From Nannobrachium achirus (lineage: Eukaryota > Chordata > Actinopteri > Myctophiformes > Myctophidae): a stretch of 64,000 nucleotides of DNA. How positions within the stretch are numbered: position 1 is the stretch's first letter; every line of letters begins with the position of its first letter. Position numbers and translations under genes: made by a program. This document shows positions 3,217 through 62,100 of this stretch, piece after piece. Location of the stretch: positions 42,072,466-42,136,465 of the forward strand of contig OY997661.1 in NCBI GenBank assembly GCA_963921795.1, given 5' to 3'. The notes below the pieces were generated by a model. It saw nothing but the letters and a program-made list of their open reading frames with translations. It was not told the origin of the DNA and ran no database searches.

Positions 3217-3603
3217 ACATGGGCAACTGGCGGCCCGGGGGCCACATGCGGCCCCAACCTTCACTTAATGCGGCCCGCAGGTTGATATTGGAGTACTGAT
3301 ATATTATTGATTTAGCTGTTACAATTCCAAACATGGAAAAAGTCATTACTTCCGACTATATCAGTTTCTTAATGACTAGTATTAATTTTCTTTTTTTTTT
3401 GTCCAAAGTATTTGTATTTAAGTTCATATACAGTAGTTAACATAAGAACATAAATGCAGTTGAAATCAAACAACAAAATAAATACATTTTTACTTTTCAG
3501 GATTCCAATTCAAAAATAGCAGATCTGCAAGCTCGTAGATCTGCTATTTTTGCTATGTATATCTGCATTGTGGCCCTCTCCATCATCGAAGTTGCCCACG
3601 CCT
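3217..3603. mobile_element. hAT/Charlie-like MITE carrying a shortened shared palindrome
   Basis: Left end CATGGGCAACTGGCGGCCC and right end AGTTGCCCACGCCTG are inverted to each other, and the GCGGCCC sub-terminal wording is typical of hAT non-autonomous elements. The target duplication is not clear. It contains the centre-deleted palindrome at 3511-3552. Confidence 0.6.
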
Positions 3604-3717
3604 GGCCTGGCCTATAGGCCATTTCTTTTAAAGACAGAATTGTAGGTTGATTTAGAGAATGACCAAATAAACCCATAGGTGGCAGCAACACACACCAAAG
3701 AGACAGAATCATAATCT

Positions 3718-3720
3718 GGA

Positions 3721-3768
<48 letters not shown>

Positions 3769-3770
3769 AA
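3718..3770. repeat. GAAA tetranucleotide microsatellite
   Basis: About thirteen perfect AAAG units. Confidence 0.97.
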
Positions 3771-4881: not shown

Positions 4882-5964
4882 TCAGAAGATCGCCCCTTTT
4901 CCGTCAGAGGTCTGTGACGTAGACCTGCTATACCTGGATCCCCCCGAGAGCCTCTCGGTTTTGCGTGTCCTCTGAATAAAAAGCTTCAGTTTCTTCCGGA
5001 ATTTCTCTCCGACGAAGGCATACAACACGGGGTTGATGCAGCTGTGGAACAGGGCCAGGCTATGGGTGACGAACAGAGCCAAGTCAACCGACTTCCTCTT
5101 GGCGCAGGTGTACCGCACAGGGTCCGCCCTCATGAGCGTGTCCGTGATCACGGTCAAGTGGTACGGCGTCCAGCACAACAGGAACGCGATCACCACGGCC
5201 ACTATCACCCTCATCGCGCGGTGCTTGTGGAAGCCGCGCGTGTGCAGCAGCCGCGCGATGGTGATGCCGTAGCATGTCACCATGACGACCACCGGGACGA
5301 AGAAGCCCAGGATGTGGCGGAGCCACCGCGTCGCCAGTCTCCAGGAGGCGGCGTCGCCGACGTCAAAGTTCTCCGCGCAGATGATCTTATCTGAGGCCTT
5401 GTCTGGTTGAAAAGCGTCGTTGAAGAGCGCCGGAAGTGCCAGCACGCAACCAAACACCCACACCACAGCACAGGCCACGCGACTGCAAATCCAGTGGCGG
5501 TCCTTTCCGAACTCCGCGGCGTGCACAATGACCAGGTAGCGGTCGATGCTGATGCAAACCAGGAAGAGGATGCTGGTGTAGAAGTTTGCCTCCTTGACGA
5601 TGTTGAGGAACTTGCAAAGGAAGTCTCCAAAGACCCAGCTCTGAAGCGACGCCGTGGCCCAAAACGGCAGCGTCAGAGCCAGCAGACCGTCCGCCACCGT
5701 CAGGTGAAACAGGTACACGTCCGATGGGGTCAGAGACTGACGATTGGAGCCAATCACCAACGCCACTACTAAATTTCCTGGTATGGCTAAAAGGAAGATA
5801 CAGATGAGGACCACGAACAGGGCTACGGTTGCTACATGACCTACTCCGCTGGCCTCACAGCTTAAAGTCCTAGGGTCTGGATCGAAGGTGGTAATGTTGT
5901 AGTTGGTGTCATTTGGTCCATACAAATCAAAATCCCCATAGTCGAAGGGAAAGATGATGGACAT
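4882..5964 (-). CDS. cxcr1/2: CXC chemokine receptor, CXCR1/CXCR2 (IL-8 receptor) type, class A GPCR
   Basis: Intact 360-codon frame for a seven-helix plasma-membrane receptor; the family binds ELR+ CXC chemokines, couples to Gi and guides neutrophil migration. Seen directly: an acidic, tyrosine-containing N-terminus with two N-glycosylation sequons (N18, N23); TM1 with GN at 63-64; Cys117 at the start of TM3 and Cys196 in loop 2, the usual disulfide pair; Cys36 and Cys287, the second chemokine-receptor pair; DRY at 141-143; CWTPY at 264-268 in TM6; NPVLY at 311-315 in TM7; and a Ser/Thr-rich tail for kinase phosphorylation. The ADTLMR-like TM6/loop 3 segment (TDTLMR, 274-279) points to CXCR1/2 rather than CXCR3 or CXCR4. 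The start is the ATG two bases after a CAG acceptor, so the coding region is a single exon, as in mammalian CXCR1/2. Which of the two paralogues it is cannot be settled here. Confidence 0.95.
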   Translation of the reverse strand: MSIIFPFDYGDFDLYGPNDTNYNITTFDPDPRTLSCEASGVGHVATVALFVVLICIFLLAIPGNLVVALVIGSNRQSLTPSDVYLFHLTVADGLLALTLPFWATASLQSWVFGDFLCKFLNIVKEANFYTSILFLVCISIDRYLVIVHAAEFGKDRHWICSRVACAVVWVFGCVLALPALFNDAFQPDKASDKIICAENFDVGDAASWRLATRWLRHILGFFVPVVVMVTCYGITIARLLHTRGFHKHRAMRVIVAVVIAFLLCWTPYHLTVITDTLMRADPVRYTCAKRKSVDLALFVTHSLALFHSCINPVLYAFVGEKFRKKLKLFIQRTRKTERLSGGSRYSRSTSQTSDGKGAIF

Positions 5965-6253
5965 GGCTGGGGACAGAAGAGAGGTATACGATTATGGTTA
6001 TATGGACATAAGAAACATATCAACATATCAAATTAAAAGCCCCCCCAAAAATCATCTAATGTTCCTTTTGCCATGTGGACAAATAGACTTGGAAAAAAAA
6101 TGCCTAAGGATGTTAAGATGTTAAGTTAGCAAACATTTGAATTGCTTCTTTACTCTGGGGCAAACATTCAGACAAAATAGCAGATCTACAAGCTCCCAAC
6201 ATGACAAATTGTATTAAATATTTTGTGTAGACCTGGCGGCCCTGGGTATAACT

Positions 6254-6799
6254 TACTTTAACTACAATATCCAAAACCATTACTTTAACTACAATATCCA
6301 AAACCATTACTTTAACTACAATATCCAAAACCATTACTTTAACTACAATATCCAAAACCATTACTTTAACTACAATATCCAAAACCATTACTTTAACTAC
6401 AATATCCAAAACCATTACTTTAACTACAATATCCAAAACCATTACTTTAACTACAATATCCAAAACCATTACTTTAACTACAATATCCAAAACCATTACT
6501 TTAACTACAATATCCAAAACCATTACTTTAACTACAATATCCAAAACCATTACTTTAACCACAATATCCAAAACCATTACTTTAACTACAATATCCAAAA
6601 CCATTACTTTAACTACAATATCCAAAACCATTACTTTAACTACAATATCCAAAACCATTACTTTAACTACAATATCCAAAACCATTACTTTAACTACAAT
6701 ATCCAAAACCATTACTTTAACTACAATATCCAAAACCATTACTTTAACTACAATATCCAAAACCATTACTTTAACTACAATATCCAAAACCATTACTTT
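6254..6799. repeat. 27-bp minisatellite, about 20 near-identical units
   Basis: Unit ATTACTTTAACTACAATATC plus seven further bases, repeated with one visible variant (C for T near 6558). Because 27 is a multiple of three and the unit lacks a stop on the minus strand, it reads as MVLDIVVKV repeated 20 times. It lies inside the predicted receptor 5' intron, so it is not expected to be translated. The homogeneity suggests recent expansion. Confidence 0.97.
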
Positions 6800-7025
6800 T
6801 CAGGAAATTGGAAAAGTCACAAACTCTTGTTAATACTTTTCAATGTAGTCAGCTATTTTCATTACTTTCGGACGACAAAGTATAAAATAACAAATTGCAT
6901 TATTGTATGCAAAATTAAATATGGCGATAGATATGAGAGATGATATACTGTACTGTTTAAGTGGTTAAACACACTTAACACATTTATAGACTTGTTTAGA
7001 TTTTAATCCTATTTCATAATAGGCT

Positions 7026-7029
<4 letters not shown>

Positions 7030-13063: not shown

Positions 13064-13338
13064 TTTACCTATCGTCATTGTCGGGTGGAAACCTCGTATC
13101 TCCAAGTTTCAAATGTGTAAGTTATTTCTCAAAGTAAAGCCCTGCTTCGTCATACAAGGCCGTCGCACAAAGGTAGTGAAAACAGCAGATCTACAAGCAC
13201 ACAACGCCTCACACCGCGAGGCGTTGTGTGCTTGTAGATTGGCTGTTTTCACTAGTTTAAATCATTTTTAAAATGATAAATGCAAAACGAATGGTTTTGG
13301 ACATACAAGGTTTTCACCCGACAACGACGCTATCCTAG
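13064..13338. mobile_element. solo copy of the TCGTC-ended palindromic module
   Basis: ATCGTCATTGTCGGGTGGAA at the left is matched inverted at the right (CACCCGACAACGACG). In the middle is the shared palindrome (13175-13253, arms with GAAAACAGCAGATCTACAAG). The same module is nested in the CAGGGACGTGCTGG family and in the element at 41222-41790. Confidence 0.7.
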
Positions 13339-13452: not shown

Positions 13453-13845
13453 CTAGGGATGGGACGATAAGCGATGTTATCGTTTATCGTGATAAAAAAA
13501 ACACTCACGATAATCGTATCGTGGAGATTTAATTTATCGTGATATCGTCCTCCGTCATGCACTGGGATCAATTCACCTTTTATTTGCTGAGCTGCATATC
13601 TGGTACGATTTAAACCCACTGTAATTGGTAAAAGGTACTTTCTCTCTTCTACTTTCTTTTTTCACTCTCTGTCAGATGTCTTTGGCAAAAAATAGCCCAT
13701 CTACAAGCTCACTAGGCGTCGCATTGCAACGCGTTGTGAGCTTGTAGATCGGCTATTTTTTGGCAAATGTTCCGCCCCAGGACAATGGGTTTCGATGATC
13801 ACGATAATATCGTAAATCGCGATTTCTTTTGTGGTTTTTCTGGTT
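13453..13845. mobile_element. AT-rich element with ATCGTGATA motifs and the shared palindrome
   Basis: Starts GGGATGGGACGATAAGCGAT and carries repeated TATCGTGATA motifs. The palindrome sits at 13681-13767. The right boundary is near AATATCGTAAATCGCGATTT. Ends resemble hAT elements, but the target duplication is not visible. Confidence 0.5.
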
Positions 13846-13976: not shown

Positions 13977-14423
13977 CAAGGGTCTTCAACAGGGGGTCTG
14001 GGACCCCTAGGGAGTCCTCAGAGTTACTACAGGGGGTCCTCCAAATCTTCCAATCACTTGAACCCTAGTGTCCATATTCTGAGAACTGTAGCCAAAAATA
14101 GCAGATCTACAAGCTCACAACGCCTCACGCTGCAAGGCGTTGTGAGCTTGTAGATTGGCTATTTTCAGCAAAGGTTTGGTGTAGAGGGGGAAAAGAGCAG
14201 ACTAAGTACAGAGTAAAAGGTCAAGTTTATTAGGTTATGACGGCTCAAGTGGTTAAAAATCTGAAAACACAAATTGACATTAATCCAAAATACACTGATG
14301 ATTGTGCTGTCAAATGATCATGAAACTCTATGGAATCCATGACTATGAAAAGGTTGCGGGGGTCCCTGCTTCATCTCTCACTCAACTAAGGGGTCCTTGG
14401 CCTGAAAACGTTGAAGACCCCTG
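13977..14423. mobile_element. hAT MITE, CAGGGGTCTTCAAC family, TSD ACATACAG
   Basis: 447 bp. Left end CAAGGGTCTTCAACAGG, right end GTTGAAGACCCCTG, with a perfect duplication at 13969-13976 and 14424-14431. Shared palindrome at 14091-14169. Confidence 0.93.
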
Positions 14424-18929: not shown

Positions 18930-19530
18930 GCCACATTGTTGTGTTTTGCTCACTTGAACATTCCTTCTGTTGGCGTGAGAAACACACAAGCAAAGAGAGA
19001 TAAATGATATCCTCCTATCCAAGGGTGTCGCACCAAATTCTGGGCCCTGGGTACGAGGATTCACTCACTTTTTGTGCTTTAACCATTGAATAAATAGCAG
19101 ATATACTTGCAGATCTGCTATTTTTGACAAATCGTGAAAGTTTGTGCGGCGTCTGAATATTTCAAATCCTTTCTATGTCGGTGGTGCTCAAATATTTTCA
19201 TGTGAAGGAGCCCCAAATTGATATGTATATTTGGCCACGGACCCCCATCTCAAAATATTTAGTTCCAGGGAACCCTCAAGAAGCAAAATTTGAGTTACAA
19301 ATGTTCGCTTAAAAAATACATATATTCAAACATTTGCACACATTTTCAAGACTTTAAAAAAATTGCAGATCTACAAGCTGGCAGTGCGGCCCTCGGTGCC
19401 GCGCTGTGAGCTTGTCAGCTTGTAGATCTGTGTGACGCCTGAATATCAACCACATTGTTGTGTTTTGCTCACTTGAACATTCCTCGTTGGCGTGAGAAAA
19501 ACGCAAGCAAAGAGAGATGAAATGATAACC
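18930..19530. repeat. direct duplication flanking a hAT element
   Basis: CACATTGTTGTGTTTTGCTC and the next ~65 bases (18930-19010) recur at 19450-19530. Between them is a reversed CAGGGGCGTC-family element beginning CAAGGGTGTCGCACCAAATT at 19020. It has a centre-deleted palindrome (19092-19125) and a second palindrome (19362-19430). Confidence 0.6.
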
Positions 19531-42900: not shown

Positions 42901-45900
42901 CACTGGACTTTCTATTGTGTACGAGTTTCAGTAACGCGGTGAATGTGGCATGGAACGTGTCATTACGTAAAGGCAAGGAATGGAGGCCGGCGACTCCTTT
43001 TGTTACGAGAGGAGTAGGAGGGCGGTCAGTAATGATAAACACCGGTTGCATGAAGCGTTCACTTCGCTATGTTTGATCTTAGAGACCATTAGCCGAATTT
43101 CACATACCGTACCCGTCAGCCTTGGGAATATTCTAACAACGCCTATAGACTTTCACACCGCTTTGAGCGCGGTAATTTAGTTAATAGTTATAGAACATTT
43201 TTTTTATTCTGATAAATAGAATTGTTGTTAACGATAACAATATTTGTGTTTCGTCAGAATCATGCAGCCCTAATACACATGTATGCCTATTGCCTTCATT
43301 TATACAACCGGGTACACGTGAACTAAGCTAGTGGTTCTCAAACTGAGGTCCGGGGCCCCCAGGGGTCCTTGAGGAGTTATGGTTCTGTAACTCTGGGAGT
43401 GCAAGAATGGGTCCATTTTAAGGCTGGGCGATTTTTGGACAGCCTTCGATATCATCGTTGAATACCTTGATATCGATATTACTCACGATATTAGTAAAAA
43501 CAATTGCATTAATAGTTTTTTGTTTTTCTGCTTTAGGTCCACTGCCTGCCTAACCCAGATAATGAATAGCATATCCATGCATGCAAACTGCACAGTACCC
43601 ATAGAATAAAGAAATGAAATGCCTTATTTCCATTTCCATTTATCACCAATACCTCATTTCAAGCCGTCTTCATTGATATGTATACTTCGCATGTTGATAC
43701 CTCGATATCGATATATTTTCAATATATTGCCCGGCCTTGGCCCATTTGGTTCCATTCAAAGTTTCGTACACTGCCAGAGTTAGGATTTTATCATGTAGAT
43801 TGGGGTCCGACTCAAATATAACATGCATATCAAACTGGGGGTTCCTGTATTTTTCTAAGTATGAGAACCGCTGAACTAAGCATTACCTTGGAGCACTTTA
43901 TATGGTAGTGCAGGTAGTCCCTGAAGGTGTGGATGAGGTTGATGGTGTTGTCTCTGGCATTGGCATTGGTGTGACGAGGGAACAGCACTGGACCAACAGA
44001 GAGAACGCCAGAGGTTAGCTCACATTAGGGTGTGTTAGATTCTGTGTATCTAAAATACTTGCAATTCAGGTAGTATAACATTAATGACAAGACAAGAAAA
44101 TAGTATACAGTTGCACAGTGGTTCTCAAAGTGGATTCCAGCAACTCTGTGGGTTCCTTTTAGCCTAGTAAACGACCAACTTCCGTTATCCAGGAATGAAA
44201 TGGTTTCCGGAAGAGGGCAGGTACGAGGCTAGGTTCCTTTAGGGGGGTCTAAATTGACCCATACAAGTCTGTAACTCTGACAGTATACAAATGGAACCAA
44301 ATGAACCCTTACGGGTTCATTTGGTTCCATTTGTACACTGTCAGAGTTATGGGGAGACTTTGACATTTGAACGTTTGGGAAACACTGCAGTAGCATATGA
44401 AATAAGAGCCTGTTTACAGGAGAATTAAAATAAACGCTACTTAAAGGAGTAGTTCACCACTTTTCAACCTGTCTTCATATAATAGGTCCTCACTAATGTT
44501 CATAATAAAATAGCAAAAAAAAAATCTATTCAGTCTGGGTCTCATAGGAGAGCTGTCAACTCCTTCTACCGTTTGACAAAAAAAAATAATAATAATGTTT
44601 TTGAAAAAAAATATTTAGATTTTTATTATCACGAGAACAATGGCTTCCACTTTAACATTGCAACTTTTTCAGGAATAGAAAGCCTGCAGTTTCTATTAGC
44701 TTGCATTTCCCATTGATGATGTCACCGGTAGAAGGATTTGACCCACCCTCAGCTCTCCTATGAGACCCAAACTGAGTAGAAAAAAATTTTGATATTTTAT
44801 CATGAACATTAGTGAGTACCTATTATATGAAGATAGGTTGAAAAGTGGTGGAGTGCCCCTTTAAACAATTCAAATAAATGTGTTTTCCTTTTTTTCTTTT
44901 GTTAATGTAGGCCCTTTCTTTTGTTAACGTGGGATCTTTTGAGAGAGAACTCTTGACACAGAACGCACAGGACAGCATTGTGAGAATTTCACATATCCAC
45001 GCAAAATTAAAACATCAGGACTAATTTGCCTTTTAACGTTGGGTGGTTCTAAAAGCTACGACTGGCCTCTCCAATGTTAACTCTTTAAGGTTTGGTGGTT
45101 CTACCAGTTAGGTAAAGGACTGACCGAAGGTGATGTATCCAATGTTATCTCCCACGGCTGCGTCTGTGTCTTTGAGCTCCAAAGGAGGCTCCCGGTGGCT
45201 GAACAGCACCTGTGGGGCCGTGTGGCTGGCTCTCCGGCCCTCCTTGAACTCCTAAACACACACAAACATATATGCACACGTGTAAAAAGATATGCGCAAT
45301 GTTTGACATACAGAGAGAAGAATCTTTCACCCCCTGCCCCCAGTGGCGTCAGTTCAGCAAAAGCTAGGGTAGGGCAAAGATGGGGTCGGGTTTTGTCCGT
45401 TTTTACCCAAGTTTCTACGGTTTCTTGGGCTGGATATGGCAGCCTGGAACGGTTGTTCAAGTGCAGCTAAACTTGGCATGTTAGTAAACGTGCCACAATT
45501 AACAATAATGAAACTGACCTGCGGAACCTGTGAATATACCATGACCATACATGAAGCTAGTTAACATTTGTTTGTTAGGTTTCTTTAGAACTTGATTATA
45601 TTGTGTTTTTCTCTAGATAGATATCCATTTACATTGTTATATTGCTGTTAATGTACTGACCTATTATCTTGTTTATTATTGCGATGTTGTATCTGCTTAT
45701 TGTAAGTCGCTTTGGATTAAAAGCGTCTGCTAAATGCCTAAACTGTAAACTGTAAACTGTAATATACCATTTTATCAAGATGGGGAGAATACAAGTGTGG
45801 AGAATATAATTATAATACCTTGTTAAAGTGACCATTTTGTTACATTTAGCAATTGTAGTTATTTTACTGTAATTTAACAACATAATAACCAGCACAGATA

Positions 45901-48900
45901 GACAAAGAGACATTCATGGATTTATATTTAAAAGTAACTTATTTTCCCCACTGGACCCAGGGTATGGCAGCTGCATACCCCTGCCATACCCAATTGACGC
46001 CCCTGCCGGCCCCAAAATAAAATGGACCTTTATCTTGCAGGAGAAAACCTCGAAAGCCTCATTTTGTGATAGTACACAAGTTTCCATTCACCCTTTACAC
46101 CTGTACAAATTCAGACCAGTGTGAACCTAAACACAAGACCCTAAGCTTGGACAAATAAGGTGCGGTCGGGTTTCGCTCCCGTCCCGCCGACCCGACCATT
46201 AGACCAGGGGTCTTCAACAGGGGGTCCGGGACCCCTAGGGGGTCCTCAGAGTTAATGTAGGGCGTCCTCCAAATCTTTGTGTGATAGAAACTTTTTTTCT
46301 GTCTTTTTTTATATTAACCACTTGAGCCATAGTGTCCAAATGCTGAGAACTTTAGCCAAAAATAGCAGATCTACAAGCTCGCCTCGCAGTTGTTGTGAGC
46401 TTGTAGATCGGCTATTTTTGGCAAAGAGCTTTGGTGTAGAGGGGGAAAAAGAGCACACTAAGTACAGAGTGAAAGGTCAAGTTTATTAAGTATTGACGGT
46501 TTAAGTGGTTAAATATCTGAAAACACAAATTGACATGAATCCAAAATACACTGATGATTGTGCTGTCAAACGATTACACAATATGGAATCTATAAACAGG
46601 TTGTGGGGGTCCCTGCTTCATCTCTCTCTCAACTAAGGGGTCCTTGGCCTGAAAACGTTGAAGACCCCTGCATTCGACGACCCACTGACCTGCATGAAGA
46701 CTTTGCCGATGATGACGTCGTCGTCGTCTTTGAACACCGTGCTGAACACCACCGTCACCCGGTCTTTCTTGGCCTCCACATACCTGAGGACACAACGTGA
46801 CAAGTGACGAGGATTAACCCAATTAGGCCTAGAATTATTGAATGCTTTAACCAGTGAAAAATAGCAGATATACAAGCTCACAGCGCGGCTCCGAGTGCCG
46901 CGCTGCGAGCTTGTATATCTGCTATTTTTGAAAAAGTCGTGAAAATGTGTGCAAATCTTTGAATATAATGTATTTTCAAAGCAAACGTTTGTAACTCAAA
47001 TGTTGCTTCTGGGGGGTCCCCGGAACTAAATATTTTGAGATGGGGGTCGGCGGCCAAATACATATCATTTTGGGGGTCCTTCACATGAAAAGGTTTGAGC
47101 ACCACTGACATAGAAACATTCAAAAAACCTTGCACAAATTTTCAAGATTTTTCAAAAAAAGCAGATCTACAAGCTCGCAGCGCGGCACTCGGTGCCGCGC
47201 TGTGAGCTTGTAGAGCTGCTATTTTTCAATAGTTAAAGCACAAACTAACGTGTACTAATGTTTTTCCAGTCTAAATGGGTTAAACCCCCTACCCCTGTGA
47301 AGAACATTCACAGGGGGCCCGCAGTGAATCCTTGTACCCAGGGCCCAGAATTTGGTGCGACGCCCCTGCCTGAGGACACAACATGACAAGTGACGTGACC
47401 TCCATTTATACAAGGATTAAGGTAGGAATGAAAATAAGGGGAAAATAAAGCGTTTGGTTTAAGGTCACACCGCAATCTGGCGAGAATCTTAAGCAGGTCG
47501 GTCAGAGTCTTAACTGCACTTTGCCTTGAGCTGGTCGTGAATGTTTAGGTAGAAATTGCAAAGAATTTGACGTTTAGACATCCACCGGGTTATTGGGTTA
47601 AAAATTAAGAAACTAGAACAATTTTCTCGGGTGTCGCTCTCCATTCCGACATGTCGCCACTCCAAAATTGACTTCTTATTGTCGGAGTGGCGACACTTCC
47701 ATAGAGGTTAAGTTTAGGGTAAGGGTTAGAGATAGGGTTAGTGTCGGAATGGAGACATGTCGGAAAGGAGACATGTCGGAGTGGCGGGGTGTAACCAATT
47801 TTCTCAGTGGAGCACATGTCTTCACCGGGCCGGGTGGAACTCCATATTTGTGCAGTCTATGACATTACGTTAGTCATCAGTGATGTTATCTATGTTATAT
47901 GACTCCATATTAAAGGAGTAGATCACCCCCAAAATTACATTTTTTTCTATTGATTAGTCATGCCATGGAGACTTGAGTTCAATAATATTTTTTTTGTATT
48001 CGTCGCATTACAAAGACAAAGAAATTGATTATACTAAAATTACCCTCACCAAAGCAGAATCAATGGGGGTAAATTTAGGGTCAACGGCCTAGTAAATTTA
48101 CCCCCATTGATTCTCACCCAAAAGCATCTGGGTCCCCATCCAGGGCCTTGTATTTGGGTCCCCATTCAGAATCAATGTGGGTAAATTTACTATAATCAAT
48201 TTTCTGTCTTAGGAATGCAAATACAGTATTTTCTGGACTATAAGGCGCACCTGACTATAAGGCGCACTGTCAATGAATGGTCTATTTTCAAACTGTTTTC
48301 ATATATAAGGCGCACCTGACTATAAGGCGCACATAATAGACGCTTATGCATCCAACAGATGGAGCTGTGCTAAAGGGAATGTCAATGTCAATGAATGATC
48401 CATATATAAGGCGCACTGGACTATAAGGCGCACTGTCGTTTTTTGAGAAAATTAAAGGCTTTTAAGTGCGCCTTATAGTCCGGAAAATACGGTAATACTT
48501 TTTTTTTTTTATTGAACTCCAGTCTCCATGGCGTGAGTAATCATTAAAAAAAAAGATTTTGGGGGTGGACAAGGAGTCAGTCCATTATTAAAAAAAAAAA
48601 AAGAAAAAAAAAACACTTCAAAACACGACACACATGCATATCCCTTTGTATGGGCCTTTCTGTCCGTGACGTTAGACCTCCGTGCTCATATATATATATA
48701 TATACATACATACATACATACACACACAAAGCCAAACGTAGGAGCCGTTAGCACCACTCGATGAAAGATAATTTGGGTGTTGATTGGTAGACAGACAAAT
48801 GTGCCAAAACCAGGGTTCCCACACATCTTCTTTACCAATTAATTTCCAAAACTTTTCCAGAATATTTAACCCAATTTCCAGGACTATATAACAATAATTC

Positions 48901-51900
48901 AGCTCAATAACGAGTCGCTTACTCCTATGCGCAATGCCTAAAGACAGGTTAGTGTATTGCCAGTGGTTCTCAACCTTTTCAGGCCGTGAACCCGAAATAA
49001 TCATATTCTAACTGGGGACCCCCCCCCCCCCCCCCCCCCCCCACCCTGACGAGCACTAAGAGTTGAGGAATTTTGTATAACACGGTTTTATTGTGAAAAT
49101 AGCAGATCTACATGCTCACAACGCCTCGCATCGCGAGGCGTTGTGAGCATGTAGATCTGCTATTTTCAAAATTTCTGCCTCTAATTTTGACAATTTGGCC
49201 CATGTTTAATTTGTCATTTCAGAGGTATTAACACAATCAATAACCAAAGACAATGCATAGCTAGGGCTGGGTTCGGTAACCGCCGTACCGCCGTATCGCG
49301 GTATACCGCAGCCTACCGCGGTGTCAGGGTCCTTACCGCGGTCAAAAAAGACAAAAAATAGGCTATTTTTAATGAGAACGAGCGAGTTTTAAAACGGGGG
49401 AGAAGCGAGGACCGCATGCGCTTCATGCCGCTCTGCTCTGGGCCGCGCACCACATGTTTGGAACAATTGGAAACTTGACCCGTCACAGTCTCCGACAGAG
49501 AGTGAGACACAGTAGACACTGGAGAAGTGCAGTAGCCTCGGTCAGCAGCGTTAAACTTTCTCCATAATCCACACGACACAACTCACACAAGTATGTTTAT
49601 ACATACCTCGTGGCCGTTTCTTTTTTATTCATACGGGCGGAGCGCGACGCGAGGACTAAAACCGAAAATGGAATCAGCGCTAGTGAGTACTTTTACAGTA
49701 TAGCGCGTGTGCCCGTCATTGTTCGACTACAACCTTTTCTGTCAAGTCTGGTAACTAAAACCTGTTTACTATGTTTATATCACCACTCAATCAATGCGAT
49801 TTGAGACATGAGTTTGCATAATCACAGACCGTACACAATCACTATACCCGTCTCATCTGGTTTGTTCACAAACAGCGTGCAGTGAAGCCCCAGTAGCCTA
49901 CCAGTGGCGTCAGTTCAGAAAAAGCTAAGGTATGGCAACATGACAGACACCAGTCATGTTGCCATACCTTAGCAACAGGCACGATGAAAGTACATTTTAT
50001 TATTTCCCCCTGTAGCCTAGGTATGGCAGGTGCCATAGCTTGCCATACCCAATTGACGCCTCTGTAGCCTACGTTACTATAGTAACCCGACACTGCAAAG
50101 ATCTACAAGCTCAGAAAGCGTTGCGAACGCGACGCGTTGTGAGCTTGTAGATCTGCTACTTTCAAAAGCCAGACCCACTGTGCTGTACGGGGAACTCGAG
50201 CAGTCGTGCTTATAGGACCGTGGAGAGACGAATTTTGGGCAGATGATAGGAATATTTTGTCTTATCGCCGAACCTTAATTAATAGATACGGGGGTGCGGT
50301 AATTACCGCAATACCGGCGGTAAATGGGAGGACGGTAACCGCGATAACAAAATGTTGATACCGAGCCACCCCTATGCATAGCTATTTTTTCCCAGGACCT
50401 TCCAGGACCCTTGATACATTCCAAAACTTTTCCAGTACTGGAAAAATATTTTTCTAATTTCAAAATATTTCCAGGAATTTCATGACCGTGGGAACCCTGC
50501 AAAACATGATATCTCGCCGAGACAAACGTGCCAAAACATAACATTTCCCGAGTCAAACCATCTCAAATGAGCTTTCTCCCTTTTCGAAACGGGACCAGGA
50601 AGACTCTTACATGGATTCGTCGTCTCTGTAGTGGACCACGGCTCTGGACTCTCCCTCCTTGCCCTCCTCCTGGAACTGGAAGTACTTCTCGAAGACGGAG
50701 GCGAAGCAGTTCCTCTTCAGCATGCCCGCCTGGTGGATCACCTCCTCCTTGTTGGCCGGCACGGCGTCCAGGTCGTACAGCAGGGACACGTTGTAGCCTG
50801 AGAAAAATTATTATTAATTGGATAATTTTAGAGATGGACCGATTGCAAAAATCTTGGCCGATACCGATCCCCCGGTTTTATGAAGGTCTGACCTGCCAAA
50901 ACCGATTTTTCCGATACCGATTTCTACCGAACTAGAAAATAGGGTTGCTCCAATACCCTTTTTTTCAGGCCAAGTAGGCCTACAAGACTTCAATTTGAGT
51001 ACCAATAAGCTAGAAGAACACTAATGCCAAATCAATCACAATAGTACAATATCCAAAATCACAGACCATATCCAGTCTAATATGACCGTCTGGACTAGGC
51101 AGGAGGAAAGCAGGTGACGCATTTTTCCTATTCTTTTTGGAGACGACATTGACACAGGATTATTGCAAAGGTAATCAGCACCATCTGTATTCTGTAGGCT
51201 GCCACTAAGTAGACTGGCTGCTACTTGCTAATGTTTACTTTAGTCACAGGACCAGAGCATCATGCTGTGCAGTGCCATAGACACAATTGGCATAAAACTG
51301 GTATTTATGTCAGTGCTGCTGGTCACCGATTCGGCCGGTTTGATATCATACCTGCCGATTTTTTTATATTGTCCGATTCCGATTTCCATCCCTAGTTAAT
51401 TTAACTCTGAGTGTAAACCAGGGGTTACTACATAGGGTCCTCAAAATCTTTGAGTGATAGAAACTTTTTTTTCGCCTTTTTTATATTAACCACTTGAACC
51501 CTAGAGTCCACATTCTGAGAACTTTAGCCAAAAATAGCAGATCTACAAGCTCACAAGGCCTCGCGCTGCAAGGCCTTGTGAGCTTGTAGATGGGCTATTT
51601 TCGGCAAGGAGCTTTGGTGTGGAGGGGAAAAGGAGCAGAGTACAGAGTGAAAGGTCAAGTTTATTAAGTATTGATGGTTCAAGACAAGTGGTTAAATATT
51701 TTAAAACACAAATTGCCATGAATCCAAAATACGCTGACCTTACAGGTCCATTTGGTAACATTTGAACACTCTCAGAGATGCAAACACAAAGTTACTGTGT
51801 AGGGTTACTTTGAAGAGTTTGAACAGTTTATTTTGGTCCTTTTAGCAGAACATGAACAGATACTACGGTTTAATTTACAAGTACAAAATTGCACCGAAAA

Positions 51901-54900
51901 GGCTTATTATGCCTATCGTAATGTAACTTTTACGGTAGGCATTTGTATCAACACAAAACAAACAGTTTCAAATTGAGGAAGTCGGCTGATAAGATATCGA
52001 CAGTCACGTTTGGGGAAAAAGGAACTATGACGTCACAAAGCACTGCAATGGAAGCAGTGGATTTAATCTGCAACATATAGGTTTTAGAAGCCTACTGTTT
52101 CATATCTGCATGATACCACCATAGGGTATCACAATGATGTATTAGATTAGATTCCACTTCATTTATCCTTAGGATGGGGAATGCAGGTGCTACTTTGGCC
52201 ACTTGGGGGTGCGTATTGATCAGGTGGGGGAAATGCAGTTGTCATAAATAAGTATTTTTAAAGGAAGTCTTTACGTGTTTTCACTTTCTGCACATCTCTA
52301 TCATCAGATTCAAATCCATAATGTTGACATATTGGCACGGGTTTTATGTTCTTTGACACCAAGTTAGTCACTCTGTCAGGAGACATTTCTTGTCAAAACA
52401 CAATGAACGTTTTTTCTGATTGACCAACTGAAGCTTACTTGACAAAGACGAGCTTTTGATCTTATGGACACTGGATAAGATAACCCTTGACGATTTAGAC
52501 AGCAGGTAATGGGGTCAAATGTTTAGATATTCACACTTTGTAAACTTAATCAACAAACTTTGTGTGACCATGTGATCTCCTCCTTGACTCCTTGATACCG
52601 GTCAGCTCAGTCATTCCCTCGCTGATCGCTCTTTTTGTATGTTTTTTTTGTGTGTTCAATGTGTACAACTATGGCAACCACTAGCTGCTGCGTAATACGG
52701 GCGCGTGGTGATTTTCCGATTGCCTTAAAGTCCGAAAGGCTGTTCAATTTAGTAGCCTATGAGAGCGGAGACACACACCGGAGGAGGAGAGAAAGAGGAA
52801 GAGAGGCGGCCGGGCTGACTGAGGTTGCCGACGCTTGCAGCATGTGATGTTTAAGATGTTAAACTTGGTTACACTCACACAGGTTGAGTGATTACTTTGT
52901 TTGATGTGAAAGCATAATGGATAAAAACCTGAATGTTACCTCTTATTCTGTGACCAAGGTTGGATCCAGTCAATTTGAAGAAATAATAATCCAGCTTTTA
53001 CTTGAGGCGAGGACACTAACAAAGCACAGGCCTACGTTTTCATTCACAACTTCTTGGCTGAAAATCCATTCTATATAGCCTATGTGTCATTTTATAGCCT
53101 ATAGTTTAAACTAGAGCTGCTCGACTCTTTTCAGACTAGCGCTGACAGTGAGTGAGAGAGCTTAATTGAAATGACCAACATAATATGCGCAGTGAACTGG
53201 AATTAGGCTATATAATTAATTATTTGGAAACAGGTGTGTAAAGATTCTAATCTATAAACATCTCAAATAGCTTTTATACTTTTTTTTAATGAGATTTGGC
53301 CTTATATATTGATATGTTCTCAGATTTGGCTATTTATTTGCTGGCTTTTAGGCTAATTAATAAATTATTTGAATCATGCCAACCTCTGCGCATGGGGGGG
53401 GGGGGGACCTCTCTCTCTGGGACATCGGATTCGGATCTCCATGCCGTCGGACGTTCAGGCCGTCGGAATATCGAGATTTTGCCGCGTAATACATGCTTGT
53501 TGTACTGTGCAACCGCAATGTCCGGTTTGCCTACAGAACCCTCCACAGTGCAACGCTACGCATCGTTGATTCCCATCTAAGCCCAGTGCATAACTCCATA
53601 TGTAAACAAGCATTATGTAAATCACATGAAACAGGGCTTATTATTAATGCAATATATGGCTTAATGATATATGGAATATGGCTTATTAAAAATGCAGACT
53701 GCTGATTTAGCACTGTCACGTAAGCAAACGCGACAATATTGACATTGGTTGCTGTAGGCTATTTTTTTTATTTGCCAGCGCGTCTCGTAATGATAGTGTA
53801 CATGTTCAGTCGATCCTCATGAATTCAAACCGGTTTTAACCCATTTAGAACGGGTACACATTTTGTGTTTCATTATTTTATGCTTTAACTATTGAAAAAT
53901 AGCAGATATACAAGCTCACAGCGCGGCACTCGGTGCCGCGCTGCGAGCTTGTAGATCTGCTATTTTTTTTAAATCGTGAAAATTAGAATTTTGACCCGAT
54001 TCTATAAGTGTCTTTTGAATCCTTCTAAGGTTTTTTGAAAACCCTATGTTTCTATGTCAGCAATCTGGCCAGCCATCGTCAAAGAAAAAGTCCTTTTCAC
54101 TTAAATGGAGCTCAGTTTGTCTGTTCTTGAGAGACTACTATGTCAGTGGTTCTCAAACGTTTTCATGTCAAGGTCCGCCAAAATGATATTTATTTGGCCA
54201 CACGGACCCCCATTTCAAAATATCTAGTTCCGGGGACCCCCCAGAAGCAAAATTTGAGTTACAAACGTTCGCTTTGAAAATACATATATTCAAAGATTTG
54301 CACACATTTTCGTTACTTTTTCAAAAACAGCAGATCTACAAGCTCGCAGCGCGGCACTCGGTGCCGCGCTGTGAGCTTGTATATCTGCTATTTTTCACTG
54401 GTTAAAGCATTCAATAATTTCTAGGCCTAAATGGGTTAAGATCGTACACCGGACCGGATAAACCGGAAATCAAAACTAGACGTCTTTGATGACAAGGTGA
54501 CAAAGGCTTCACTGGGTGAACGCACAGGCTCAAAGGCACCAACTCTGACAGGCTGTCAATCAACCAATTAAGCCATGATTTAAGCCATGGACGGTCAAAT
54601 ACCTTTGAGGACAAAAGCTTCAATGGATGAACTTGCGGATAGGTTCAAGGGAATCTCTTTCATGCAACACAAGCCATGTCAGGCTGAATGCTTTGTCTGC
54701 ACCAGTGTTGTTTTAGTCAGTCTTTTGAAGAAATGTCATTTATTGGACACGTTGTGAGCTTGTAGATCAGCTATTTTCAGCACAAAACACCTGAGAGCAA
54801 CCAAACATAAAATGACTCTTCTCCACTAGTCCCTCCCTAAAGTTTTAGTCTAGTTTTTATTTTGTTGACGAAATTGTCAATATATTTAGTCTTAGTTTTA

Positions 54901-57900
54901 GTAAGTGAAAAAAAAAAACAGTCGACAATCATTTTTCTACATAGTTTTAGTCGACGAAATCAACACTGGTCTGCACTGCAACTTACTCGACTCTGCAGCA
55001 ACAAGGTATGTCCCATAGATCCTTTTCAGCAGCTGAAATGACAGGAATCACACGATTAACACATTTTATTTCGTCTCGATGAACAATGAAACCGAGGCAA
55101 ATAGGAATACACAGCCGTTAGACGAAACATTACAAAATAAAAGGAACATTAAAGGGAAAGCTTGCCTATTTCTAACCTGAATCCTATCATGAAACTGAGG
55201 AGAAAATGTGAACAAAACATTTCCCAAAGCGTTCTGTGACTTGAGAGCTCGCTCATATGAAAACGGCGATGGGCAACTCCGCCAGCCTAATGATGTATTG
55301 GCTGATGTTAGGGCTGTCACAATTATTACATAATCGTCTAATCGCAATTATTTGAGGTAATCACAATTATTTTGCCTAATCGTCATAATCGTTTCCATGT
55401 TGAGAAATGTTAAAATAATTTCAAACACTTTCAAAAAGTAGTGGAAATAGCAGATCTACACAACGCGTCGCATCGCGGCGCGTTCTGAGCTTGTAGATTG
55501 GCTATTTCCACAATCAATGTTCTTTTTTATAAAGTTGTCAAATATGTCAGTCATTTCTTTGTACATTTAGGTTATGTGTCATAACTGCCATGTGCAACTT
55601 CAAAGCCTACAAAGCCAAACAGAAATGTAATTGTCAACGACAAATACACAATTAAAACGCTAACCGCAATTATTTGAGTGACAATTAATCGTCAAGTAAA
55701 ATGTCATAATTGTGACAGCCCTAGCTGATGTATTTAGTCTGTAGAAGTCATTTTCATGAGAAAGGTCTCTCGCCTCCCTGGAACTCTGGCTCGTATGGGG
55801 CTGAGGTGGCTCTGTGAGGTTTTGCTGGACAAAAGTTGGATAAAAAAAAATCTAATCCAACCTACAGTAGTATTAGTAGCAAGTGTATTTCATCATTGTG
55901 TTACTGTTGTGGTACTGTCAACTGTATATGGATTAGTACAAATTAGGTGATATAGACAATCTCCTTTTAAAGAGAGAAGTGTGGTGGATTGAATATCTGA
56001 AAACAATGGCGCCTATAGGTCTAAACGAGGACTTTGATATTAGACCGTTTTTGTAAAAGAAAATAACAGGTGGTTTACTTTTTGTGAGAGTCTACTTATA
56101 TTGCTGTGATTTGATAAACATAAGGGTTGAATCGAGTTAGGATCTGATCTCCTTTGAAAAGTTTTTAATTTTAGAATTGTTTATTTTTATAAAAAAGAAA
56201 AAAACATAAAAAAATATTACTAGAAAATCATGTACAGTTATTTGTAATTATACAACTGCTGTGAATCTTGTTATACTACGAAATCATGTCTAACTTATCA
56301 CTGATATGCGCCCACACACCAGGTGGGGCTAATGACTATCAGTGTCACAAATGTACTTAAAGACATGGGTTTCCTGTTTCCTGTCATACTGAAGAAGACC
56401 TTACGGGTCGAAACGTATATTTTTTTGCTGTTTGCTAAATAAAAGAATTGGAGCTACAGAGAAAGTGAGTGCGAGCTATTTTGTTTCTTTTTAGTACAAA
56501 TTAGGATCACAACATCCGGTTATCCCGCTGGCTCTCAACATGGTTAAATGACTGATAAGTTAGGAGCCAAATGGACCCTTAAAGATCTGTAGCTTTTATA
56601 TTATAGACATTTCTGCAACTTCTATATTAGACATTTCAGTAATGCCTTTGAATGTGACATCAACATTCAAATGAACACTTACGGGCCCATTTGGTTACAG
56701 TTATTAAATTATCACTGTGGATTTTAGAGTGTAGATTGGGGTCCCTCAGACAAGAGATGTCAAGCCTTTGAATTTAAAAAGGGTTGAGAAACAATGTGTG
56801 TATCATATATATATCGGTATCAACGGGAAAAACATACATACTGTACACTACGGTAGGTCAAGTAAGGTTGGTAGACTATCAACTTTCACATGAGATAGTT
56901 TATTGTCATCTGTCAGCATCTTTGAAAGCCAAAAAGCCAGCAAGACAAACTTGCCCTACCACAAACAGGGTTTGTCTATTAGTGACAAACCAGAGGCGGC
57001 TTGTGTTGAGCAGATAATTGCAGCTCGGCTAGGATGAAAATAGACACGGAGCTCCGGTCCCAAATCGCTACCTGTCACTGCGGAATGGACAGCGCTAAGC
57101 TAGGTGGTATCATGCAAATCAGGCGGAGGTATGGAAGACACGCAGCTCAGGGGCGTCAATTGGGTATGGCAGGGGTATGCAGCTGCCATACCCAGGGTCC
57201 AGGGGGGGGGGGGAATAATAGTTACTTTTAAATATAAATCCATGAATGTGTCTTTGTCTATCTGTGCTGGTTTATTATGTTGTTAAACAACATGGTCACT
57301 TTAACAAAGTATTATAATTATATTCTCCACACTTGTATTCTCCCCCGTCTTGACAGAATGCTATATTCCCAGGTTCCGCAGGTCAGCTGCACAGGTGCAA
57401 TGCATTATTGTTAATTGTGGCACGTTTAGCTGCACTTGAACAACTGTTCCAGCCTGCCATATCCAGCCCAAGAAACAGTAGAAACGGGGAGATTTTTTTT
57501 TTACTTAAAATAAATGTATCATGCCTGTTTGCTAAGATATGGCAACATGACTGGTATCATGTTGCCATACCTTAGCTTTTTCTGAACTGACGCCACTGAC
57601 GCAGCTCTTGTGGGGTTTCAGGTGAAAGAGGATTCACTCTTGCTCCAGCCTGCCCACGCAGAACGCTAGCTAGCATTCAAGTTCACAGAAAAGCTGTGGC
57701 GAAGCCCATGGTTTGGTAACACAACACAGATAACACAATGCTTGATATGCATCGGTTGCAAGATTAGCCTCATTGGCAACATGCTGGATTACCAGGCAGG
57801 AACTCTTCTAGTTCTTTACAACAGACAACACCAGTAGCGCTTTGGAGGCCGGACGCGACCGGACGCCGTGTGGTCGGAAAAATTCCCTCACGGACGCACG

Positions 57901-60136
57901 GACGGCACCGAACGGTGCACGACTGTGTAAACGCGTGCATAAATAAATGACCGTCCGCCCGGAAAAGAAAATCCCAAAGCACCACTGGATAACACAATGC
58001 TTGATATATGCATCGGTTGCAAGATTAGCCTTCATTGGAAACATGCTGGATTTACCAGGCAGGAACCCTTCTAGTTCTTGGAACAGTGGACAGTAAAAGT
58101 ACCTTTATTTGAATACTGTACTTAAAACTTTTTTTGAATATCTATACTTAAATTAGTATTTGTATTTTTGGATACTTTCACTCCACTACATTTCCAAGAC
58201 AAATAGTGTTCTCTCACACAACTACATTTCTAAAAGGGGAAAAGGTACATCATGAAATAACCAACCACTTAAGCCATATATAGTGAAAAAGATATCTGGA
58301 CTTTCATATCTGCATTTCAATACAGTATGCATTCATATACAAAACCAAAATGCACTCTGTTTTAGGGCATTCACGAATAGTGATTTTTAGTATTCTAATT
58401 ATTCAACCTCTAAGTATTCGAATAGTCAAATATTCGACAGGACTGGCCAAACTGTCAAATATTAAGTAAGCAAGAGGCGAACATTGTGAAAATAGCCGAT
58501 CTACTAGATCTGCTATTTTCAAAATATTTATCTGCGAAACAGAGTCAAATTAAATGTAATACCTACAATTCCAAGTGCTTGTCAGGGTGGGGGTCCCCAG
58601 TTCAAATATGATTCTTTTGGGGGTCACAGCCTAAAAAGGTTTGAGAATCCCTCGTTATAGAGCATTAACAAATTCATCCACCAGGGACATTGACAACTCA
58701 TTATTATGACTTCCTATCTAGCCAAGCTTTATAATCTATATATTTTTTTAAAGAGAAAATAATAAAATAAGCGAATATTCGACTTTGGTGAACAACGTTG
58801 AATAGTGACTTTTGATATTCGATTGTTAGAATATTCGAATATTTGGTGAATGCCCTACTCTGTTTGTGATTTGTACTTTTTCACTTTGTGTTGTGGAATG
58901 ATATTTGACCAGTAGCATCGATACTTTTGACTTGAACTGGGGTCTGGGGATGAGCTGCTGCCTACTTGTCCACCACTGCTAAGTGCTAACTCTGCATCCC
59001 GTCTGGTCAACGGCTTCCTTTTCATGTGGGCCTCATGGTGCTGCTGAACCCCAGTGCCTCCCTGCGTCTGCACTCGTAGAATCTGAGCGAAAGAGGAGGG
59101 CAGACGTCAGGGACGTGCTGGCCATTGGGAAAAGCAGGACAACTCCCGAACGGCTGGTTCATTCCCGGCCGGTCCAGGCCGGCCGTTAGGAAAAAAATAC
59201 AAATAAAATGTCTGCCTTCGTTCCATTTTGGGGGCTGGGCGGCCGACAAAGTAAATAGTCACTGTCGGGCAGAAACCTCGTATCTCAAAGTTTAAAATGT
59301 GTACATTTTTTTCGCAAAGCAAAGCCCTGCTTCATCATACAAGGCCGTTGCACAAAAGTAGTGAAAACAGCAGATCTACAAGCACACAACGCCTCGCGGT
59401 GCGAGGCGTTGTGTGCTTGTAGATCGGCTGTTTTCACTAGTTTAAATCATTTTTTAAATGATGAATACAAAACAAACGGTTTTGGACGTACAAGGTTTCC
59501 ACCCGACAACGACAAAATATAACTCATGTAATTGGCCCACTGGCTTGTCACTTGTCATGATCTGAAATGTCAAATCTTTGAGTAGCAGCAGCAGCGCTAT
59601 GGAGAGATATGCCGCGCAATGAGGGCCTCTACAACTCTTTTTCCCGGGCTGAATCAGGGGCCCAGCACGTCCCTGGCAGACGTCCACTGGAAGCCGGCCA
59701 AGGCACTTCATTCAGCAGCGGCGGGCGGCGCTCCGGCACAGTCAGCACTTCCTCACTCGGGCTGACTCACAGAGCAAGCTTCCTGTTTTCAGCAGAGGCC
59801 TCTTGCAGAGGCTTTATCTCCATACAAGGAGAAGGAGTGTGTGTGTGTGTCTGTAAGAGGGTGTTGTGTGCCGACATATTCAGCTTTTCTGTAGCTTTAC
59901 TCATGTTGAGGTTTTACATTTATTAGTCGACAGCGGGGGTTCTGCCTTTAGGCCGGTTTGAGCAGCGAAAACCCAACTACATTCTCTCATGAAACCATCA
60001 CGTGACAGACGGATTTGAATCACAGTAGTTGATGCACAGAAACAGGACTGTGCGTAAGCATGTATGTGTGAATAAGAAAGAGCACGTGCACACACGTGTG
60101 TGTGAGAGAGGAAGAGTGTAAATTATGTCTGTATGA

Positions 60137-60233
<97 letters not shown>

Positions 60234-62100
60234 AGGTTTGTAATCACTTCCAACAAGATTCATCTGTGTGTGTGACTTTTTCTTTTAAATAAACACATAT
60301 GCACAGATAAATCTTGTGGTAAGTGATTGCAAGAGCAGCCTGGCTCAAACATGTCAGCTTCTGTCTTAACTTGTTAAAAAGAAAAACAAGTCTATGAGGA
60401 ACAAGACCCTACAGACACAGCCTATTTGGGAAATAGACCTCAGGGTGTGTAAAAAATATATAAAAAGAAGAAAAAAAGCCACCCTCGTTGTGTGTGTAGG
60501 TGTACTTCTCTCACCTCGTCAGCCCCATGCTCCTGCAGCTCCTTGTAGAACTTTAGGGAGATGCTGACCATCACCTTGGTCTTGTCCCCGTTGGGGTTGG
60601 AGATGTGGTACAGGACGCCATCGAAATCTACGGCCAGCAGAGAAATGCTTAGGGTCTACCGTCATATAAGGCTGGTTACACCCCGCCACTCTGACACTAA
60701 CCCTATCTCTAACCCTTACCCTAAACTTAACCCCTATGGAAGTGTTGCCACTCCGACAATAAGAAGTCAATTTCGGAGCGGCGACATGTCGTAATGGAGA
60801 GCGACACCCTATAGGGCATCTATCAGAATCAGCTTTGTCACATAAGGTCTACTGGTCATCTATAAGGCTGAGCCAAGGGCAGTAACTACAGTATGTATCT
60901 TTTTTTAACCACGTAATCCCTATATACTTAGTTAAACGGAGTCCCCCAAGACTCTATACTAGGCTCTGTCCTCCTTTCCCTATACACCCAATCTCTTTGC
61001 CGAAATAGCCTATCAACAAGCTCACAAGAACGCTCACAATGCAATTTTGGCAGACCACACAATAGGGACGCAAGCGTTCCAAGAGGTTAAATATCACAGT
61101 CAGTAATGCTTCTGCAAATCTCTTATCGGTTGGGTTAATTTCATTTTATTCTATTAGTAGACATTTTTCTCTTATTGAGCACTTCTACACCTAATTTAAG
61201 TCCCAAAGTTGACCCATAAGGATACATTTTGACACTTGAGTTAACTCTTTTACTGTGCTGATAATCCCGACATGGAAGTAAACGGTTAATGACAATGCCA
61301 CATTTTTTTCTTAATGCATATTAAGAAAAAAATGAAACGGATGTTTCACATTAATAACATACAACTACATATGACCTCACCTGCAAAGGTCACCTCCACA
61401 GCCTCTGGTTTGGTTCTGCCAAGAAGAAAACACAGTTTGACGTAAAGATTGAGAACAAACACTGTCATAGGTGACAGATGCACACTGTAGTATTTGAAGC
61501 AACTTGAATGCACTAGGTCTGTACTTGTTTGTTCGTGTTTCTACTGCACCATAATTGTACAGTGGTGGTAACAGTACATATTTTTTTATGTGGCAGCTGG
61601 CATGTCCAAGAGAACTTTCCCTAAGGGGTAAATAAAGTAACCTTGAACCTCAAGAAACCCACTGTTATTTTGAAGGCATGTATGTTATTGAGCTATTGCT
61701 TAACAACTCTTAACCTGGCGTCCCAATTTGGGCTCATGATTGTAGGTGAAAATGTCCCCAGACTCCCCACATTAAAAAGAAATAGCACAACAAGCTCTGT
61801 GATAAGCATTGTGAGCTTGTAGATTGCTAAGGCTATTTGTCAGTATACAATAGGGTTACTATCCTGAATTCCTGATAAATATTTAAACTAACTTACATGC
61901 ATATACTTACATGCATATACAATTCAATTCAAATGAGCTTTAATGGCATGAGAAACACAAGTTTACATTGCCAAAGCAAGTGTCACAAATACAATAAAAA
62001 CTGTTGAAAATGGGGAACATATATAGCCTACAGTTGGAGGGGGTACAGCATTGTGTAAACTATGTCGCATTGTGACATTTTATACAAGGTAGCACGCACG

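Follow-up and report, generated by a model that had tools for sequence, protein, structure and literature searches.

A homologous hairpin palindrome in unrelated non-autonomous DNA transposons of the fish Nannobrachium achirus, probably carried as a host-amplified passenger

Results

Palindromes and their carriers in the window

The window analyzed here comprises 64,000 bases (positions 42,072,466–42,136,465 of contig C24) of the 1,658,514,493-base genome of Nannobrachium achirus, and contains many copies of a short palindrome lying inside several kinds of DNA transposons, among them miniature inverted-repeat transposable elements (MITEs). All comparisons were made within this single genome. 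A preliminary description of the sequence had listed about 33 palindromes with both arms, plus four half copies. An automatic search with a 15-base arm (at most 4 mismatches, two arms paired at most 75 bases apart) recovered 31 of the 33; the two that were missed, at 22446 and 61780, are degenerate palindromes recognizable by eye, and one extra match at 21665 was spurious and was dropped. The four half copies (6174, 27657, 54748, and 61000) were all confirmed.

The palindromes were grouped by flank similarity into lineages CD (21 loci), A (12), B (11), F (10), G (4), E (3), H (3), and I (2), with 12 singles. Window coordinates below refer to the plus strand unless a minus sign or the word unoriented is added, and loci elsewhere in the genome carry L numbers. 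Lineage A is represented in the window by five palindromes. Those at 13184–13244 and 41422–41470 (−, C-type subfamily) lie in TA-flanked elements, designated MITE-A, at 13071–13331, outside a CAGGGACGTGC host, and 41329–41583 (−). The other three lie in hAT-like CAGGGACGTGC hosts with an 8-bp target-site duplication (TSD): a shortened palindrome at 23327–23358 (host 23064–23605, carrying MITE-A), one at 31196–31256 (host 30989–31508), and one at 59369–59429, whose stem is perfect save for an A/C mismatch described below (host 59108–59675, carrying MITE-A). Lineage B palindromes were found at 14100–14160, in a hAT-like CAGGGGTCTTC host with an 8-bp TSD (13977–14423); at 32374–32434, together with a lineage B relative at 32567–32627, in a stretch between CAGGGGTCTTC ends that has no TSD (32262–32872); at 34260–34308, in a TTAA-ended inner segment (34212–34405); at 46364–46413, in a similar TTAA-ended inner segment (46314–46512) of a CAGGGGTCTTC host without exact TSD (46205–46670); and at 51536–51596.

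Lineage CD comprises a remnant at 19096–19119 and palindromes at 19364–19432, 19722–19782, 27912–27972 (unoriented), 39506–39552, and 39797–39857 (−), as well as the half copy at 27657–27690, whose flank by eye is like a CAGGGGCGTC element; the degenerate palindrome at 22446–22530 (unoriented) has a flank that looks CD-like by eye. Three TTAA elements carry one palindrome in the left and one in the right arm: a TTAACCCATTTA..TAAATGGGTTAA element at 36953–37528 (37002–37062 and 37431–37491, −), and elements at 46814–47283 (46863–46923 and 47160–47220, −) and 53836–54439 (53901–53961 and 54329–54389, −). Lineage E palindromes occupy 36129–36184, in a TAGGGCTGTC-type host without exact TSD (36009–36407), and 55449–55503, in a TAGGGCTGTC host with an 8-bp TSD (55309–55723). 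In lineage F, an F2 palindrome (42428–42474) and an F2 remnant (58494–58514, −) lie in TAGGGCATTC hosts with 8-bp TSDs (42144–42605, with a CAGTGGTTCTC-type fragment inside, and 58363–58857), and an F1 palindrome lies in a CAGTGGTTCTC host (49101–49161). The lineage G host, a CATGGGCAAC element with ends CATGGGCAACTG..TGCCCACGCCTG and no TSD at these ends (3218–3604), contains an internally deleted palindrome core (3518–3545, unoriented), and the lineage I palindrome listed earlier at 13681 (13694–13754) has a host with TAGGGACGGGACGAT-type ends. The remaining copies are a palindrome at 50096–50157, the degenerate one at 61780–61846 (unoriented), and the half copies at 6178–6193 (arm core exact), 54748–54790 (−; flank resembling by eye that of L011:4263, lineage J), and 61000–61040, within a TTAACCACG..GAGGTTAA segment (60905–61090).

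Genome-wide abundance and anatomy

The exact 16-base core of the arm occurs 91,746 + 92,186 = 183,932 times in the genome, and its reversed control sequence 0 times in the same 1,658,514,493 bases. An unbiased sample, made up of one 10-kb locus at 20.0 Mb on each of the twenty contigs C1–C20, contained 37 palindromes in 188,050 non-N bases, from which a whole-genome total of roughly 3 × 10^5 is estimated by extrapolation from these 37 events; the window, with 31 per 64 kb, is about 2.5-fold denser. Together, the window and the unbiased loci provided 68 genuine arm pairs, and loci L001–L008, which were picked by seed sequence, provided 10 more, giving a set of 78. Outside this genome, searches of the viral_contigs and genome_contigs collections returned 0 matches, and a literature search by title and abstract start, which did not extend to subscription journals or Repbase, found no report of this palindrome or of one common to many fish transposons.

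A 14-row alignment was built from full-length copies chosen to span the lineages (two of the rows are reverse complements of each other, which leaves 13 copies represented). Its consensus describes a palindrome of about 77 bp (70–80 bp), with arms of about 36–37 bp and a loop of 3–5 bases, which reads (g/c)(t/a)GAAAATAGC AGATCTACAAGC TCACAACGCCTCGC, loop, and then the reverse complement. The mean identity of the ungapped rows was 86%, with variable loop columns (38–40), and the scaffold from AGC to GCT measured exactly 61 bp in 35 of the 78 arm pairs, most others being shorter. Five copies tested as single-stranded DNA folded at −33.9 to −50 kcal/mol (z −9 to −17), and no shuffle folded as well. 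Given this strong folding and the contrast between the 16-mer count and its reversed control, the palindrome is not a product of chance. Rfam at gathering score gave 0 matches over the window. Repeated arm pieces (GATCTACAAG-like units) were observed in the palindromes at L014:2319, L013:3086, and L023:8465.

A recurrent mismatch pairs AGCA in one arm with AGCC in the other. Among full-length copies, this A/C mismatch was present in 7 of 8 in lineage A, 4 of 4 in B, 1 of 1 in E, 2 of 3 in F, and 3 of 3 in G, as well as at L010:7391 and window position 32567, and 10 of the 14 alignment rows are unpaired at this position. Lineage I has the mismatch in L076, L081, and L085, and lacks it in the sole full-length I copy of the 78-pair set. 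On the basis of the common 61-bp scaffold, the 86% identity, and the occurrence of the mismatch in most lineages, the palindromes are homologous.

Host lineages and nesting

The preliminary description had proposed nine unrelated host families. Eight of the nine ends named there, all but TAGGGCTGGG, were looked for, and each of the eight was seen. Hosts with CAGGGGTCTTC, CAGGGACGTGC, CAGGGGCGTC, CAGTGGTTCTC, TAGGGCTGTC, and TAGGGCATTC ends each had an exact 8-bp TSD at one locus at least, with none at some loci. Judged by these TSDs and by CAG/TAG-type terminal inverted repeats (TIRs), the hosts of A, B, F1, F2, and E and the CAGGGGCGTC host are non-autonomous hAT MITEs, and the CD host, with TTAA at both ends and matching TIRs, a putative piggyBac-like MITE; four loci with TTAACCCA(T/A)TTA..TAAATGGGTTAA ends carry palindromes. 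Many MITE-A copies are bounded by a 2-bp AT duplication. For host I, an exact 8-bp TSD was found in the palindrome-free L071, and none in L013, L024, and L027. The CATGGGCAAC hosts of lineage G had no TSD at any of four loci at the ends used, three of which are copies of one site: L001–L003 fall in an 8-kb stretch of C1, with their flanks in common, and the lineage was therefore counted as two independent loci.

When host consensus sequences or single-copy flanks were compared, similarity was confined to F1/F2, A/S1, B/B2/S5, H1/H2, and short hAT end stretches that are alike between CD, F1, F2, S3, and S5; no other pair of lineages had similar flanks at E 1e-3. Descent of the hosts from one lineage with diverged ends, which by the preliminary description would have refuted independent acquisition, is thus not supported, and non-hAT elements are among the hosts. 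Nine independent acquisitions did not hold up. Since several of the end types enclose the same interior, about seven independent flank lineages are left (A, B, CD, E, F, G, and I), in addition to H with three loci, J, K, and the singles. At L021:1072, a palindrome without the A/C mismatch lies in DNA that is likely single-copy, both flanks matching only themselves in a loose search.

Nesting accounts for part of the list of hosts. The TAGGGCATTC host (F2) encloses a CAGTGGTTCTC-type fragment (F1) together with its palindrome. The CAGGGACGTGC host (A) carries MITE-A, which is about 183 bp long, or about 250–262 bp with the palindrome, and which also occurs alone. In the CAGGGGTCTTC host (B), an inner TTAACCACTTGAACC..GGTTCAAGTGGTTAA segment surrounds the palindrome, and the 115-bp element at L024:412–526 has similar ends and a palindrome inside, with no CAGGGGTCTTC host adjoining. 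Lineages A and B are therefore layered: a hAT element contains a small MITE with TA or TTAA ends, and this MITE contains the palindrome. TTAACCCATTTA elements carry two palindromes in inverted arms, and their interior recurs in one CAGGGGCGTC element, where one of the two palindromes is partly deleted. The sequence at L021:5786–7044 has TTAACCCATTTA ends without any palindrome arm.

Two observations stand beside these. The 1259-bp element at L021:5786–7044 has by eye a long open start (MEDALSEGKPDPLELALLLLRDMFEND..) and is a possible source of the TTAA ends. In the chimera L122, the left arm of a lineage A palindrome runs straight into lineage CD sequence with its own palindrome.

Host copies without the palindrome

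Palindrome-free copies were sought with the two flanks joined as query in lineages A, B, I, and F1. Such searches favor palindrome-free copies, and scoring was limited to the best 40 candidates; the counts are therefore not genome frequencies. Among the fetched copies, 13 of 16 in lineage A had no trace of the palindrome and 3 kept remnants (L041 has 6 extra bases nearby), and the gap was 0 in 10 of 16 copies in lineage B and in 10 of 15 in lineage I. Of 20 copies in lineage F1, 10 were exact, 7 kept TTTTCACAAT of the right arm, 2 had one extra T, and 1 was of another kind. Lineage A copies reached via their flanks in the window and in L001–L028 still had arm pieces where the full palindrome was missing. 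Hosts without the palindrome, which the preliminary description had asked about, accordingly exist in all four lineages tested, but deletion accounts for many of these copies, so that their existence does not in itself prove insertion.

On the flank tree of lineage A, the filled and empty states changed 10 times, compared with 10.2 in shuffles, when partial palindromes were labeled as filled, and at least two of these changes were forced by starred branches. The trees of B and I, in which a few remnant-bearing copies were labeled as empty, gave 7 changes against 7.7 and 7 against 8.6, with no starred branch. Because empty copies are intermixed with filled ones on the trees and some retain arm remnants, many of them are likely deletions and not pre-insertion sites. 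Direct repeats of 2–6 bp were found at the base of the stem (TAGT, TTTAGC or GC, ATT, and TTTG), which would permit exact removal of the palindrome by slippage, and at the palindrome-free junctions a single TA is left in A, a single GC in B, and a single ATT in F1. In view of the tree mixing, the remnants, and these repeats, palindrome-free copies were not accepted as proof of insertion. The palindrome-free pairs L029/L033 and L099/L100 have private variants in common, which suggests that empty forms amplify too.

Evolution of the stem

Between lineages, 17 of the 37 stem pairs had changed on both sides, with 46 two-sided cells compared with 5 one-sided ones. Four of five measures of paired change lay above all 500 shuffles and the fifth, further pair types, was reached by 27 of 500, in a comparison that does not control for relatedness, lineages A, B, F, and CD giving more than one row each; all five measures lay above every slid control. 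Changes private to single copies were distributed differently, 86 being one-sided and 5 paired, and four of these five fall in lineage B, where the consensus, drawn from four copies, is poor at its outer bases. The two-sided changes between lineages and the one-sided private changes indicate that pairing was renewed in the founders of lineages and is lost in single copies. Loops were also found inverted with the arm difference unchanged in orientation, as CACCG and CGGTG in lineage A and as CCGAG and CTCGG in lineage CD. Arm or flank copying was seen in 4 of 20 fetched copies (L080, L087, L093, and L094), in which inverted copies of the host flank adjoin the palindrome, as fold-back template switching predicts.

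Divergence was compared in flank-anchored alignments. In lineages A, B, E, F, and I, the palindrome differed at 108 of 2402 positions (4.5%) and the flanks at 467 of 6986 (6.7%), without a gradient by distance and with nearly equal values in lineage B (4.9% and 5.4%). An apparent youth of the arms relative to their hosts, which would have indicated re-homing (3.0% against 15.4% outside CpG), was traced to misaligned flanks and dropped in favor of these values (A, B, E, F1, F2, and I).

Other features of the window

A second palindrome family of about 78 bp has two similar copies at 44272–44349 and 62602–62679, which read TAACT(T/C)TGACAG..CTGTCA(A/G)AGTTA with CAAATGGAACCAAATG inside and are possibly another short palindromic MITE. 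Long inverted repeats at 25653–25966 and 26401–26591 have 132-nt arms that are 95% complementary and 80-nt arms that are 98% complementary. A 369-aa open frame at 4882–5991 (−) matches the chemokine receptors CXCR1/CXCR2 with E ~1e-75, and a tandem array with a short AT-rich unit, translated as repeated FNYNIQNHY, lies at 6218–6943.

Discussion

The reading that we prefer, with a probability of about 0.6, is that a near-perfect, homologous hairpin is a passenger in at least seven unrelated lineages of non-autonomous DNA transposons, amplified by its hosts, and that its arms are matched by template switching. The palindrome occupies one position per host lineage. This family-specific site, together with a divergence similar to that of the flanks, points to amplification through host transposition, in which the hairpin inside a small element would be carried passively and multiplied by the transposases of its hosts. 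As the nested structures suggest, it would gain new hosts through the insertion of palindrome-bearing elements into others or their enclosure by other ends. The preliminary description had proposed that the module moves between elements or that a mobile hairpin invades MITEs; what is supported is one homologous palindrome in many unrelated DNA-transposon families, non-hAT ones among them, and repeated invasion by the bare hairpin is compatible with the data as an inference only. Because the lineages have nothing else in common, some entry of the bare hairpin into new small elements is inferred, and it might proceed by copying at a replication fork, either hairpin-primed or guided by microhomology, rather than by means of a transposase belonging to the hairpin. 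This entry route is tentative and the weakest step of the scheme. The variation of the junction bases in sequence and length between lineages would favor hairpin-guided template switching over a transposase.

The two arms would be kept matched by template switching during replication, a process that, according to PMC8794818, creates and mends hairpins, and that is also described in PMC8604942 and PMC3820800. The two-sided swaps with few G-U steps, the loop inversions, and the arm and flank copies agree with it; a DNA hairpin may also have been selected for in the course of transposition. The boldest version, which we regard as doubtful, is a hyperparasitic DNA hairpin in a vertebrate nuclear genome: a transposase-free palindrome of about 77 bp would pass from one unrelated transposon to another by hairpin-guided template switching at replication, use their transposases as vehicles to reach hundreds of thousands of copies, and repair its own stem by arm-to-arm copying.

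Several results weigh against the passenger reading or parts of it. By no means all copies have the A/C mismatch: it was absent from all 12 lineage CD copies, and a set of 39 pairs comprised 18 A/C, 15 A/A, 3 C/C, and 3 other pairs. Copy-level support for template switching is thin. The four examples of arm or flank copying come from a set biased to disturbed flanks, and extra inverted repeats beside the palindromes were found in 0 of 68 cases (window and unbiased sample), below the 41 of 1000 in controls, in a test that leaves out arms at most 14 bp from the palindrome and thus does not cover short extensions; an enrichment of inverted host copies beside palindromes was thereby rejected. Recurrent arm copying beside lineage A was also rejected. 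The variable flank position, within a 22-mer that has 28,522 copies in all, was G in 62, C in 36, T in 2, and A in 0 of the 100 matches listed, all from the start of C1, and the symmetric C form proved to be a single subfamily (one change, support 89/99) in a tree of 20 fetched rows, of which four were unusable and two were on very long branches, with three window rows added. Finally, no pre-insertion site was proven among the palindrome-free copies of A, B, I, and F1.

Among the alternatives, the palindrome might itself be a minimal MITE whose arms serve as terminal repeats for a hypothetical transposase that makes a duplication of about 2 bp and perhaps prefers transposons as targets. The single TA, GC, or ATT retained at palindrome-free junctions and the palindrome in apparently single-copy DNA at L021:1072 would fit, as would the yeast mitochondrial GC42 element, for which AG target nucleotides, single at many absence sites, are described (PMC4478555). 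However, the repeats at the stem base vary in both sequence and length (TA/TAGT, GC/TTTAGC, ATT, and TTTG), and deletion would leave the same traces, which confounds any reading of a TSD length; deletions that bear remnants are common, with 7 of 20 fetched copies in F1. The outermost bases also differ by lineage (GTGAAAA or CAAAAA), and no autonomous partner was seen, in work that included no search aimed at one. We consider this explanation unlikely, though the strongest of the alternatives. A second proposal makes the palindrome a cis element of transposition, acting as a replication stall, a transposase enhancer, or a silencing shield, and retained because it aids multiplication. Hairpin pairing is indeed maintained between lineages, and very abundant families, such as lineage A with its 22-mer, carry the palindrome; against this, the amplification suggested for palindrome-free pairs and the varying position of the palindrome between hosts make such a role rather improbable.

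That the palindrome is the ancestral core of a single element whose ends diverged or were replaced is very unlikely. Differing ends around a common interior are real for F1/F2 and for the CAGGGGCGTC/TTAA elements, but at E 1e-3 the other lineages share no flank beyond the short hAT end stretches, and the TSD classes differ (8 bp, TTAA, and 2-bp AT). Copying through RNA, in which transcripts of the hairpin would be returned to DNA at new sites by reverse transcription, has been proposed for GC42 (PMC4478555) but is scarcely credible here: A-T replaces T-A and C-G replaces G-C among the two-sided changes, and G-U intermediates are few, which points to pairing at the DNA level, and Rfam gave no match.

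Functionally, the nearest known systems are the mobile hairpins of organelles, with which the fish palindrome has in common its short length, variable loop, and many dispersed sites. In the accessible text of PMC4478555, GC42 is likewise a short mobile palindrome with a stem more conserved than its loop, it has AG target nucleotides with single-copy absence sites, and its units merge; it differs in belonging to an organelle genome, where 89 homologous positions were compared, whereas the fish palindromes are nuclear and number an estimated 3 × 10^5, and that text does not describe it as carried inside DNA transposons. The palindromic repeats of Volvox organelles (PMC2670323) and the sponge mitochondrial RHE (PMC2800124) are also proliferating short hairpins, those of Volvox being often inserted in one another. 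As described there, both are mainly organellar, with small amounts in Volvox nuclear DNA, and they reside in intergenic DNA, in introns, or in one another and not in named transposon families. The fish palindromes do not have an organellar location, as they lie on contigs of tens of Mb. The V-domain of short interspersed elements (SINEs), spread by the MER6 DNA transposon, resembles the present case as a conserved module in unrelated element types that is amplified by a DNA transposon, and differs in being a SINE domain with, judging by the title, one DNA-transposon host (PMC6887750).

The hAT-, TTAA-, and TA-type MITEs are the hosts here, with TIRs and TSDs as expected, and the palindrome is internal and common to them. 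Palindromic DNA also occurs in fish genomes as Angel MITEs and, inside a hAT element, as the internal inverted repeats of Tol2; these are longer, at about 300 bp, and to our knowledge are not one core in many families.

If the passenger spread proposed here is true, the hairpin would parasitize the genome's own parasites. The ends and the interior of a transposon normally travel together and serve to distinguish families; an interior module common to hAT, TTAA, and TA elements means that interiors are exchangeable on a large scale and that repeat libraries may wrongly merge or split families. Matched filled and palindrome-free host copies are a natural assay of hairpin instability and template switching in the vertebrate germ line, and mobile hairpins like those of organelles may flourish in the vertebrate nucleus too.

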